This document shows, one piece after another, positions 1,943 to 5,433 of a stretch of 5,433 nt of DNA. The position numbers and the translations under genes were made by a program. Origin of the DNA: a bacterium (GTDB lineage Bacteria; ARS69); NCBI GenBank assembly GCA_025774865.1, contig JALGZO010000598.1:1-5433 (forward strand), read 5' to 3'. The notes under the pieces are model-generated. The model was not told where the DNA came from and searched no databases. It saw only the letters and a list, made by a program, of their open reading frames with translations. Position 1 is the first letter of the stretch. Each line of letters starts with the position of its first letter.

Positions 1943-2185
1943 TCAGCGGCGCCGGCGGACCCGGATTCGGGCCGAATCGCCGCTCCGCTCCACGTCGACC
2001 AGCTCCTGGCCATGGCCGCGGCACCAGAGCCGGACGTCCTCTTCGGCCGCCGGATCGTCGGCGATCAGGAGCACCGTGGCGCCCTTCTCGACGGTAACGA
2101 CCCGTTCCGCAAGCCTGATCACGGGAATGGGGCACAGAAGCCCGCGGGCGTCTTCGACGACGTCGCCAGGGGCATCTTCTCTCAT
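1943..2185 (-). CDS. TusA/SirA-family sulfurtransferase (sulfur carrier)
   Basis: The product is 80 residues, the usual size for stand-alone TusA proteins. It carries the family signature D12-A-R-G-L-L-C18-P-I-P21: C18 of the C-P-x-P motif is the persulfide-bearing cysteine. The later D44-P45 and G57-H-G-x-E-L elements also match the family alpha/beta fold. A second cysteine is C55. In the family the cysteine accepts sulfur from a desulfurase or rhodanese and hands it on for tRNA thiolation, molybdopterin synthesis or sulfur oxidation. No partner gene is visible, so the pathway cannot be assigned and I leave the symbol blank. The ATG at 2185-2183 shares its A with the TGA of the upstream lipoprotein gene (TGATG), and the bases before it contain no Shine-Dalgarno, so translation is probably coupled. 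A longer in-frame start at 2317 would run inside the lipoprotein gene and lacks family similarity. Confidence 0.85.
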   Translation of the reverse strand: MREDAPGDVVEDARGLLCPIPVIRLAERVVTVEKGATVLLIADDPAAEEDVRLWCRGHGQELVDVERSGDSARIRVRRRR

Positions 2186-2973
2186 CAGGAGGAACCCGGC
2201 AGGGCCTCGACCTTCTCCTTGGCCTTGATGGGAGCGAGCTCCTTCATCTCGCGCTCGGTGCCGAGGAACCGCATCTCCATCCATCCGAGATGACGACCCA
2301 TGAGGCACTGCGCCCACCCCTGGTGGAACCGGACCACCTCGACGCCGGTCCCGAACTGGTACTCCTGGATGACGTTCGCTTCGGAGCGCGGTCGATCCCG
2401 GAAGGCCGCCTGATCCCGAACGACATAGAAGGTGTCCGTGTCCAGCGTGAGAATGAGATCGCGGCGCTGCGTGCGAGAGGACGTGAACGTCTCATGGTGC
2501 CGCCAGCCGGCGTCGGAGCTCGCGACGAAGGAAACCGGACCTCGCTGCACGAGACGAAGATCCCCGAACGAGAAGGACGACTCGTAGACGCGGTCCGCGT
2601 CGAGACAGGGAACGGATACCGAGTACTCGCCTTCCTGGTTCAGCGAATCCACCGCCGTGTACGCGAAGCACGTGTCGTAGTCGAGCGACCAGAATCGCGT
2701 GCCGGGCTGGCGGCTCTCGACGCAGATCTCGCTCTTGATCTCGATCATGATCGCTTCGGGAAGAAGGAGGCCGTCGGAGGTCTTGATGGCACCGGCGACT
2801 CGGAAGAGCTCGATCCCGTCCAGGAGCCGCGCGTACGCGTCCGGCCGCGGATCGAGGTTTTGCTGAGGTCCGCCGGGGCGAACGGCGCTCGAGCGGGTTC
2901 CGCTGCAGGAAACGAGCGAGAGAGACGCGAGCCCACCCAGCAACACTACCGCCATGGCTCGGTCCCACGCCAT
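2185..2973 (-). CDS. Lipoprotein with a C-terminal bacterial SH3-like domain
   Basis: The product is 262 residues. The N-terminus (M-A-W-D-R followed by a hydrophobic stretch) ends in the lipobox L20-V-S-C23, so C23 should be lipidated. Serine at +2 fits outer-membrane sorting under the E. coli rule. Residues about 59-178 look like a beta-sandwich with three cysteines (C84, C102, C123) that I cannot assign to a family. Residues about 180-237 resemble a bacterial SH3 domain: F-Y-V-V-R-D, then V-I-x-E-Y-x-F-G-T-G, then G219-W220 and G230-W231 near the end. SH3b domains commonly bind cell wall or protein ligands in the periplasm. The tail (about 240-262) is charged. The start at 2973 is chosen because GGAGG (2985-2981) lies 7 nt upstream and the signal peptide begins there. 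Its stop overlaps the tusA-like start. A functional link between the two is not obvious. Confidence 0.78.
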   Translation of the reverse strand: MAWDRAMAVVLLGGLASLSLVSCSGTRSSAVRPGGPQQNLDPRPDAYARLLDGIELFRVAGAIKTSDGLLLPEAIMIEIKSEICVESRQPGTRFWSLDYDTCFAYTAVDSLNQEGEYSVSVPCLDADRVYESSFSFGDLRLVQRGPVSFVASSDAGWRHHETFTSSRTQRRDLILTLDTDTFYVVRDQAAFRDRPRSEANVIQEYQFGTGVEVVRFHQGWAQCLMGRHLGWMEMRFLGTEREMKELAPIKAKEKVEALPGSS

Positions 2974-3073
2974 CTCGCGACCTCCACGGACGGAATCCCC
3001 TTGAGAGGGACTTCCGCGTTTCGATACGCTCCGGGCTTGCCCTGGGTTCCAGGATAGGAGGGGCCCCGTTCCC
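2974..3073. promoter_or_regulatory. Divergent intergenic region with a weak candidate promoter for rlmN
   Basis: These 100 nt separate the lipoprotein gene (minus) from rlmN (plus) and should hold promoters for both. On the plus strand TTGAGA (3001-3006) matches the sigma-70 -35 at 5 of 6 positions. It lies 16 nt before GATACG (3023-3028), which matches the -10 at only 3 of 6. Ribosome binding sites are clear: AGGAGG at 3056-3061 for rlmN (12 nt from ATG, rather long) and GGAGG at 2985-2981 for the lipoprotein. I see no convincing minus-strand promoter. Confidence 0.35.
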
Positions 3074-4192
3074 ATGCAACCGCGCAGCGAGTCAGGTCCC
3101 CCCATCGCCACGAGACCGAGCCTCAGCACCCTGAGCCTCGGCGAGCTCCGGGAGCTCATTCTCTCCCGGGGCCTGCCGGAGTACCGCTACCGCCAGCTCG
3201 CGCGCTGGCTCTACGACAAGGGTGCGGAGTCCTTCGACGAGATGACCGACTTCTCCCTCGAGCTGCGGCGCGAGCTGGAGCGCGAATACGCGCTCGAGCG
3301 CTTGGAGGTGGCGTCACGCCGCGACAGCGCCGTGGACGGCTCCAGCAAGTACCTCTTCCGGCTCGCGGACGGGGCCGCGGTCGAGTCGGTGTTCATGCCC
3401 ACCGAGAAGCGGGTGACGCTCTGCATCTCCTCTCAGATGGGCTGCACGCTGGATTGTGTCTTCTGTCAGACGGGACAGATGGGGTTCTACCGGAATCTCG
3501 AGCCGCACGAAATCGTCGGGCAGCTGATTCCGCTCTGGAAGCGCGTACGAGGAACGGGTACCCGCACGAACGTCGTGTTCATGGGGATGGGCGAGCCGTT
3601 GCACAATGTGCGAGGGGTCGTCGCAGCGTGCCGTCTCATCATGGACCCGCTCGGACTGGGACTCGGACCGAAGCGAATCACGGTGTCCACGGCTGGCGTG
3701 GTCCCCGGAATCCGCCGGCTCGCGCGATCGGGCCTCGGGGTCCGTTTGGCGGTCTCTCTGAACGCCTCGACCCAGGAGGCACGAGAACGGCTGATGCCGC
3801 GAGCCGCGAAGACCGATCTCCGCGAGCTCGTCGGAGCCGCGCGAGAGTACGCCCGCCGGTTTCAGTCGAGAGTGACGATGGAGTACGTCCTGATGCAGGG
3901 CGTGAACGACTCACCCCGGGATGCCGACCGCCTGGCCGCTCTCCTCGCAGGCGGTCCGTTCAAGATCAACCTGATCCCCTACAACCCGGGGGCCTCGCCC
4001 GAGCTCCGACGTCCCTCGCGCGAGCAGGTGGACCGGTTCGCTCAGAGGCTCTTTCCGCAGGCTCCCGCCGTCACGGTGCGCTGGAGCCTCGGACCTGACA
4101 TCGCCGCCGCGTGTGGGCAGCTCCACGTCGAGGCCGCCGATCCGCCCCGAACGAGAAGAACCGCCTCCCCACGAGAGAGAGGCGGTTCCTGA
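3074..4192 (+). CDS. rlmN: Dual-specificity 23S rRNA (A2503-C2)/tRNA (A37-C2) methyltransferase RlmN
   Basis: The product is 372 residues, within the usual RlmN range. It is a cytoplasmic radical-SAM enzyme that methylates C2 of A2503 in the ribosomal peptidyl-transferase centre and, in E. coli, of A37 in some tRNAs. An N-terminal RNA-binding helical region (about 17-75, with the typical P-x-Y-R-x-x-Q motif) precedes the radical-SAM barrel. The [4Fe-4S] cluster motif is C124-x3-C128-x2-C131. G-M-G-E-P-L at 171-176 is the SAM-contact motif. N-P at about 304-305 and the C-terminal D-I-A-A-A-C347-G-Q-L are also typical. C347 aligns with the methyl-carrying cysteine (E. coli C355) and C117 with the second catalytic cysteine (E. 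coli C118). All key residues are present. The last 20 or so residues are a charged Arg/Pro-rich tail, partly encoded by a terminator hairpin. The start is supported by AGGAGG upstream, and no better internal start is seen. Confidence 0.96.
   Translation: MQPRSESGPPIATRPSLSTLSLGELRELILSRGLPEYRYRQLARWLYDKGAESFDEMTDFSLELRRELEREYALERLEVASRRDSAVDGSSKYLFRLADGAAVESVFMPTEKRVTLCISSQMGCTLDCVFCQTGQMGFYRNLEPHEIVGQLIPLWKRVRGTGTRTNVVFMGMGEPLHNVRGVVAACRLIMDPLGLGLGPKRITVSTAGVVPGIRRLARSGLGVRLAVSLNASTQEARERLMPRAAKTDLRELVGAAREYARRFQSRVTMEYVLMQGVNDSPRDADRLAALLAGGPFKINLIPYNPGASPELRRPSREQVDRFAQRLFPQAPAVTVRWSLGPDIAAACGQLHVEAADPPRTRRTASPRERGGS
4158..4188. terminator. 10-bp perfect hairpin between convergent genes, overlapping the rlmN 3' end
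   Basis: GAACCGCCTC (4158-4167) pairs perfectly with GAGGCGGTTC (4179-4188) around an 11-nt loop. On the minus strand the stem is followed by a T-rich run (T-T-C-T-C-G-T-T-C), so it best fits a terminator for the histone gene ending 57 nt upstream at 4245. On the plus strand there is no U-tract. The right arm ends 2 nt before the rlmN stop codon (4190-4192), so the hairpin is also coding sequence. Probably bidirectional. Confidence 0.6.
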
Positions 4193-4244: not shown

Positions 4245-4421
4245 CTAGATATCGGACCCCTTGACGGTCTTCCGGCCGTTCGCCTTGGTCCGCTGAACGG
4301 CCCTCTGGATGATCCGATTGACCTCGGTCGACAGGGCCTCAACCGCGTCGCCGCTCGTCGAGCAGCCCTGCCCCTTGATCATTTCCCGAACCTTCGACTG
4401 CACAACCAGGATTTCGCTCAC
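4245..4421 (-). CDS. Bacterial single-domain histone-fold DNA-binding protein (short, alpha3-truncated)
   Basis: The product is 58 residues. The start is a GTG at 4421-4419 with AGGAGG (4435-4430) 8 nt upstream. It reads as a histone fold: helix alpha1 (about 4-17, V-V-Q-S-K-V-R-E-M-I-K), loop L1 (G-C-S-T-S-G-D, 19-25), long amphipathic helix alpha2 (about 25-47), and loop L2 with the hallmark N48-G-R50-K-T52-V, then D57-I. In histones the L2 Arg-Thr pair and the following Asp stabilise the fold, and loop L1/L2 residues contact DNA. Archaeal histones such as HMfB continue about nine residues after the D-I; this protein stops there, so alpha3 is almost absent, as described for bacterial histones such as Bdellovibrio Bd0055. 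It should dimerise and bind DNA in the nucleoid, but multimerisation cannot be read from sequence. An in-frame ATG at 4640 would add 73 Pro/Ala/Arg-rich residues with no family likeness and is not favoured. Confidence 0.85.
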   Translation of the reverse strand: MSEILVVQSKVREMIKGQGCSTSGDAVEALSTEVNRIIQRAVQRTKANGRKTVKGSDI

Positions 4422-4678
4422 TTCACACTCCTCCTGAGAACGAGTCCAACGGAGACCGGGAACGCGTGAGAGGACCTCCCGGGCCTTCACGGGGCCGCAT
4501 GATGGGACGGCGTGCGGCCGGGCGTCAACACGAAATCCCGAGAAAATGGGCTCGTGAGGGCGTCCGGAGGCGCTCGGGCTCCGGCCCGCCGGGGGCAGAG
4601 CCGCGTCGACGACGGCGGCGGGGCCGCGGCCGGAATCCATAATTGATTGATATTGCTCTGTTTAGAGGTCTCGACCGA
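4422..4678. other. 257-nt gap between the pseudokinase and histone genes, with an AT-rich islet
   Basis: Apart from the candidate promoter at 4499-4528 and the histone ribosome binding site, I see no gene. A short AT-rich islet (about 4638-4664, containing A-A-T-T-G-A-T-T-G-A-T-A-T-T) stands out against strongly GC-rich flanks just after the pseudokinase stop. A 6-bp inverted repeat (4564-4569 with 4579-4584) lacks a U-tract and is a poor terminator. Confidence 0.5.
4499..4528 (-). promoter_or_regulatory. Candidate sigma-70-type promoter for the histone gene
   Basis: On the minus strand TTGACG (4528-4523, 5 of 6 to the -35 consensus) is followed after 18 nt by CATCAT (4504-4499, 4 of 6 to the -10). 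Transcription would start near 4492, giving a leader of about 70 nt before the GTG at 4421. Consensus matching in GC-rich lineages is unreliable, so this is tentative. Confidence 0.4.
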
Positions 4679-5433
4679 CTAGGACGCGCACCCGCGGGCG
4701 ACCCAGAGCGCGATCGCGGCCCCCACGATCAGGGCGAAGACGAGGCGCCGATTCCCGGGACCCCGGGCGGGCCTCTCGGTTCGTGGGCCGTAGGGCCCCC
4801 ACGAGGCACGGATCACGCCGATATCGCCGGCGAGCTCCTCCGCGCGGTGGACACGGGAGGCGCGGTCGGCCATGAGCGCGCGTGCGAGAAAGCGTCGCAG
4901 CCCCTCCGGGAAGACGTCCGAGATTTCTTCGGGGTCGGGTCGGGCGGGGTCCCGAAACACCGATCCCGCGCCGCCGGCGAACGGATCCCGTCCCGAGAGG
5001 CATTCGAAGAGGACGCGGGCGAGCCCGAACACGTCGCCCGACGGCGAGCCCTCCGGCCGGCCCTCGTCCTCGGGGGCGCGGGCATCACGAGTGGCGAGAA
5101 ACGGCGCGAACCCGACGTGCAAGAGAACCGTCCGACCATCGTCGGAGAGGAGAATCTCGCTCGCGGCGACCGCCCCATGCACGACGCCGGCTCGGTGCGC
5201 TTTCGCGAGACCGGCGCCGACGCTCTTCACGAGGTCCAGCGCTTCGGGAGGGTCGAGCGGCCCTTCGCGCAGCCGCTCGTGCAGACGTCGCCCGTGGTAG
5301 GGCGCCGTCACGATGACGGCTCGATCTTCAATGACCTCGGCCCCGAGCAATCGCGGCAGACTCGTGTGGAACACGCGCCCGAGACTCTGCTTCAGATCGG
5401 AAGGCGATAGTCCGCCGAGACCGCTGCCCGGGC
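4679..5433 (-). CDS. Ser/Thr protein kinase-like protein, catalytically dead (pseudokinase), tail-anchored; 5' end outside the window
   Basis: The frame is open to the right edge (first full codon at 5431), so the true start, glycine-rich loop and ATP-anchoring Lys lie outside. About 250 residues are visible. They follow the protein-kinase fold: an alphaC/beta4-5 stretch, a hinge (A-P-Y-H-G-R-R-L), helix alphaE, then the catalytic loop at about 5179-5153 reading H-G-A-V-A-A-S-E-I where active kinases have H-R-D-x-K-x-x-N-I. The catalytic Asp, Lys and Mg-binding Asn are all replaced. DFG is H-V-G (5119-5111). A-P-E, the subdomain IX Asp (S-G-D-V-F-G-L-A) and the late Arg of subdomain XI are kept, so the fold should persist. 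The activation segment is short. A Pro/Arg linker leads to one hydrophobic helix (about 4747-4694) and only a few residues after it, suggesting a cytoplasmic domain anchored by its C-terminus. ATP transfer is unlikely; a scaffold or allosteric role is inference. The TAG at 4681-4679 ends it. Confidence 0.82.
   Translation of the reverse strand, partial: PGSGLGGLSPSDLKQSLGRVFHTSLPRLLGAEVIEDRAVIVTAPYHGRRLHERLREGPLDPPEALDLVKSVGAGLAKAHRAGVVHGAVAASEILLSDDGRTVLLHVGFAPFLATRDARAPEDEGRPEGSPSGDVFGLARVLFECLSGRDPFAGGAGSVFRDPARPDPEEISDVFPEGLRRFLARALMADRASRVHRAEELAGDIGVIRASWGPYGPRTERPARGPGNRRLVFALIVGAAIALWVARGCAS

Follow-up and report, generated by a model that had tools for sequence, protein, structure and literature searches.

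The histone gene and its expression signals

The window analysed here is an entire contig of 5,433 bp (C602), from a 4.7-Mb bin of 785 contigs that is 92.65% complete and 8.3% contaminated. Its minus strand carries a gene of 58 codons at positions 4245–4421, running from a GTG start codon (4421–4419) to a TAG stop codon (4247–4245). The encoded protein (VSEILVVQSKVREMIKGQGCSTSGDAVEALSTEVNRIIQRAVQRTKANGRKTVKGSDI) has a net charge of +4 and a pI of 9.9, and ends in RKTVKGSDI. A bacterial histone of this length had been proposed at this position, and the sequence matches, AlphaFold2 model and structure comparison described below agree with that proposal; the coding strand is the minus strand, and the plus strand of 4245–4421 contains no histone-like reading.

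A Shine-Dalgarno sequence, AGGAGG (minus strand, 4430–4435), lies 8 nt ahead of the GTG. AGGAG-like sequence occupies the matching position upstream of the histone in three relatives, so the N-terminus of the tail-less protein is well supported. A longer histone, starting from an upstream ATG in a 131-residue frame, was rejected because the start and Shine-Dalgarno sequence are conserved and one orthologue (L085) has no other in-frame start codon. All four orthologues begin one or two residues ahead of the conserved core. A putative σ70-like promoter, TTGACG-N18-CATCAT (minus strand, 4499–4528), is the single promoter-like site between 4100 and 4800, where shuffled sequences lead one to expect 0.0 ± 0.1. 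In each of the relatives L090, L091 and L092, the stretch read has a single match to the pattern TTGAC[GT]-N15/18-CAT[CG]AT, about 105 nt upstream of the histone start codon. At the other end of the gene, a strong 15-bp hairpin followed by CTTCT (minus strand, 4156–4190) overlaps the 3′ end of the neighbouring rlmN gene and is a terminator candidate; each of the three relatives likewise has a hairpin 3′ of the histone, accompanied by T-runs in L090 and L092. The original prediction had pointed to the GTG start, a strong ribosome-binding site, a candidate promoter and a terminator. Of these, the start, ribosome-binding site and promoter look real, and the terminator is a candidate.

The shared Shine-Dalgarno distance, promoter and N-terminal starts indicate that the histone is very probably a separate gene and that the absence of a tail is real. 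Transcription of the histone alone, from its own promoter, is likely. A regulatory RNA in the histone leader was considered and rejected: an Rfam search gave no match anywhere in the window, and the leaders of the four genomes fold differently from one another.

Conserved neighbourhood and family distribution

The histone gene is convergent with rlmN (plus strand, 3074–4192), which encodes a 23S rRNA/tRNA methyltransferase. Upstream lies a kinase-like gene on the minus strand (4679–5431, cut by the contig end) that has lost its catalytic motifs. Both neighbours are taken as genomic context only. All four genomes with the histone share one gene order: the pseudokinase gene, then the histone gene, rlmN in convergent orientation and the gene found here at 2185–3159; genes for TusA and an outer-membrane-like CarboxypepD_reg protein come next in the two longer contigs. 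The β3 lysine of the pseudokinase is replaced (VRLW in L090, L091 and L092), and across the four genomes HRD has become HGA or HGH and DFG has become VGF, VGW or LGF. A C-terminal hydrophobic stretch, probably membrane-spanning, is present in three of the four (not in L090). The 2185–3159 gene (minus strand) belongs to no confident family; it has a weak SH3_4 match and a core identity of 59–69% with its counterparts in the three relatives.

Of the five genomes sampled for the family, which make up our whole sample of the phylum, four contain the histone. Its orthologues in three other genera are 68–72% identical, the conservation of the frame on which the original prediction had staked itself, and the nucleotide differences fall mostly in third codon positions (25 of 44 in the comparison with L090). 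The fifth genome (G003, 67% complete) lacks the histone locus. We rejected a loss of the histone there, given that rlmN is absent too and no close pseudokinase match was found, so that the locus is simply missing from the assembly. The genome of the window yielded no other histone; two weak matches in it (E = 0.03 and 0.8) were rejected as further histones for want of additional evidence. Outside the family, 23 of about 285 other bacterial genomes sampled encode a histone of this broad type, a frequency that fits the patchy distribution described before.

Most of the nearest named relatives in a pattern search are Diapherotrites archaea. Together with the 8.3% contamination of the bin, this might suggest an archaeal contaminant introduced by binning or assembly; an open frame arising by chance in GC-rich sequence would be another way to dismiss the gene. 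However, rlmN and TusA genes lie on the same 5.4-kb contig, and the same neighbours recur in three other genera, including one genome that is 100% complete with 1% contamination. The family also forms its own clade (support 99/93) and has the codon-position pattern of a protein gene. For practical purposes, both explanations are refuted. As a separate observation, L028 and L033 (labelled Chloroflexi, AB_1215_Bin_59) encode histones near those of Diapherotrites, and are possibly misbinned archaeal contigs.

Histone fold and class

In a phmmer search of the PDB, the protein matched HLp of Leptospira perolatii (E = 3.3 × 10^-9), HBb of Bdellovibrio (E = 7.7 × 10^-9) and HTkC of Thermococcus (E = 1.3 × 10^-5). 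Of the profiles suggested at the outset, Pfam PF00808 (CBFD_NFYB_HMF) reached 19.6 bits (E = 0.0011, residues 28–58 only), under its gathering score of 21.4. PF00808 is a related model that is too general for this histone. The NCBIfam archaeal histone model (E = 6.7 × 10^-6) was also below its curated cut-off. Given that the general models score below their cut-offs, automatic annotation could miss the gene.

The AlphaFold2 single-chain model, built from 52 aligned rows, has a pLDDT of 94.4. It consists of helix α1 (residues 8–17), helix α2 (26–47) and a single turn (55–57), and the chain ends at residue 58. Structure comparison (Foldseek, VIA-align) placed HLp (9qt0 and 9qt1) at the top, with a Z-score of 9.2 and a r.m.s. 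deviation of 0.7 Å over 57 residues, followed by HBb (Z = 8.6), HTkC (9f2c; Z = 8.2) and the nucleosomal archaeal histones (Z = 6.1–6.3). On the combined evidence of sequence and predicted structure, the 58-residue protein is a genuine bacterial histone. Since the Z-scores of HLp and HBb are tied within error, structure alone cannot separate the face-to-face (FtF) type from the dimer type.

Most of α3 is indeed missing, as had been noticed, with only one turn left in the model. This is not peculiar to the protein: Schwab et al. 2024 define the α3 histones by their truncated α3 (PMC11390915), so the missing helix is a family trait. Compared with nucleosomal histones, α3 in this group is reduced to 3–4 residues and α2 is 4–5 residues shorter (PMC11390915). 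The α2 (26–47) and α3 (55–57) of the window histone fit this description, and the protein aligns end to end with both HLp and HBb. The archaeal nucleosomal histones HMfA and HMfB share the histone fold and the RxTxxxxD motif, but they have a longer α2 and a full, three-turn α3, whereas the chain studied here stops one turn into α3; the structural match to them is weak (r.m.s. deviation 1.5–1.6 Å).

Within the α3 histones, an arginine and an asparagine join two dimers in the FtF type and are both missing from the bacterial dimer histones (PMC11390915). The conserved residues of the FtF profile are R48, N52, R54, T56 and D61 (PMC11390915). The window histone has R44-x3-N48-x-R50-x-T52-x4-D57, with spacing identical to R41, N45, R47, T49 and D54 of Haloferax D4GZE0, and these residues are common to all four family members (the window protein, L084, L085 and L086). 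HMMER profiles, which are small, gave 103 bits for archaeal FtF histones (an overestimate, since the members of this set had been selected for resembling the query), 85 bits for bacterial FtF histones and 58 bits for the HBb type. The invariance of R44 and N48 among loci from the pattern search is partly built in, KANGRKTV having been among the search words. Relatives from a separate genome search fall mainly into a group with both R and N and a '(D/A)(G/x)RKTVM(D/A)RD' group without one or both; the window family falls in the former.

The original prediction had likened the protein to both the Leptospira and the Bdellovibrio histone. The Leptospira half of the comparison holds: HLp and the archaeal FtF histones are the closest characterised relatives and should take the place of Bd0055 in the analogy. 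An HBb-like protein that bends DNA as a dimer seems distinctly unlikely. HBb (Bd0055) of Bdellovibrio bacteriovorus (PDB 8FVX, 8CMP and 9EZZ; PMC10627809, PMC11317129) is a close second in both searches and has in common with the window histone the truncated α3, shortened α2, GRKTV loop, RKTxxxxD motif and α1 lysines. However, it is a dimer only, and has S and D where the window histone has R44 and N48; the HBb-type profile scores 27–45 bits lower than the FtF profiles. A 64-protein tree places the HBb-type histones in a separate clade (99/96), with the window family outside it; the alignment of 58 columns does not resolve the deeper forks, and for this reason we rejected reading a direction of horizontal transfer from the tree. 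By its sequence, then, the window histone is best explained as FtF type and not as an HBb-type dimer histone, and it clusters with FtF sequences.

The known FtF histones differ from it in several respects. HLp (PDB 9QT0, 9QT1 and 9QT2; PMC12701072) is about 43% identical and agrees in its fold, one-turn α3, R/N/R tetramer residues, RD clamp and most DNA-contact residues, but has RTT in loop L2 in place of RKT and a disordered N-terminal tail of about seven residues. The window histone has no such tail, in contrast to most bacterial FtF histones. The archaeal FtF histones, represented by HTkC of Thermococcus kodakarensis (PDB 9F2C) and the Diapherotrites relatives, are tail-less as well, share the R/N/R/T/D pattern at identities of up to 66% (L007) and give the highest profile score; here, however, the host is bacterial and the four family proteins form a clade of their own.

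Proposed assembly and role in the nucleoid

HLp forms a tetramer around which about 60 bp of DNA is wrapped (PMC12701072). Its tetramer residues are R49, S52, N53, R55, T61 and F63 (PMC12701072), which correspond, with an offset of 5 in the structural alignment, to R44, A47, N48, R50, S56 and I58; HLp D62 corresponds to D57. The published DNA contacts A13, S14, K15, K17, K21, T27, G29, T56 and T57 (PMC12701072) correspond to Q8, S9, K10, R12, K16, T22, G24, K51 and T52. The residues are identical or similar at most mapped positions, the mapping being a transfer of published residues by alignment, from no modelled complex. By analogy with HLp, two 58-residue chains would form a head-to-tail histone-fold dimer, and two dimers would be closed into a ring tetramer by contacts at both ends that involve R44, N48 and R50 together with S56-D57-I58 at the C-terminus. 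About 60 bp of duplex DNA could then wrap this ring without sequence specificity, contacted by α1 (S9, K10, R12 and K16), loop L1 (T22 and G24) and loop L2 (K51 and T52).

HU/IHF-type genes are present in three copies in the same genome and in two or three copies in each relative. All five family genomes thus encode architectural proteins other than the histone. In this respect the lineage differs from the HLp hosts, HU and Dps being absent from Leptospira (PMC12701072), and resembles Bdellovibrio, where a histone and HU occur together (PMC10627809). It is likely that the window histone is a chromosomal nucleoid-associated FtF α3 histone which assembles as a ring tetramer, wraps DNA, is transcribed from its own promoter and functions alongside the HU/IHF proteins. 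It may also be abundant.

A histone fold with some other job, such as a local regulator or a partner of the pseudokinase or of some unknown protein, in place of general service in chromatin, we consider unlikely. The HU/IHF proteins of every family genome could do the bulk packing, the pseudokinase is a constant neighbour, and a prokaryotic histone does not necessarily organise the genome (PMC11390915). Against this, the residues with which HLp contacts DNA are retained, Bdellovibrio combines HU with an abundant histone (PMC10627809), and the histone's own promoter implies no operon with the pseudokinase. A fuller history is possible, if rather doubtful: an ancestor of the phylum may have acquired a tail-less archaeal-type FtF histone once, and its descendants retained it, alongside HU/IHF, in the role of a chromatin protein; its constant neighbour, a membrane-anchored pseudokinase, would then perhaps be functionally linked to it.

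The histone family itself was described recently, in archaea and some bacteria; what is of interest is the little-known bacterial group, the lack of a tail and the joint occurrence of histone and HU. Only two bacterial histones, HBb and HLp, have been studied at the bench (PMC12701072), and the host lineage appears to be as unstudied as was first supposed. A tail-less FtF histone in an HU-bearing bacterial lineage would show whether wrapping in bacteria needs the tail, and how histones and HU share one nucleoid. One more lineage is also available for asking whether FtF histones reached bacteria from archaea, tail-less forms being otherwise mostly archaeal.

Several other histone variants came to light in the searches. 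A variant α3 histone in L097 and L120 (genomes G033 and G180) has KAAGKKTV in loop L2, lacks N48 and has a lysine for the arginine of the RD clamp; both genomes also encode a canonical FtF histone (L119 and L100). Double FtF-type histones, with tandem folds in one frame, are encoded in L019, L054 and L056 (each from position 4001), from two archaeal bins and one bacterial. FtF-like histones are also present on contigs of 48–82 kb from a viral collection (L121, 3001–3168; L122, 2980–3168; L123, 2815–3165). The histone of L122 adjoins a DNA polymerase gene and a UvsX/RecA-like gene, and that of L123 has two histone folds in one chain and lies beside a primase-like gene.
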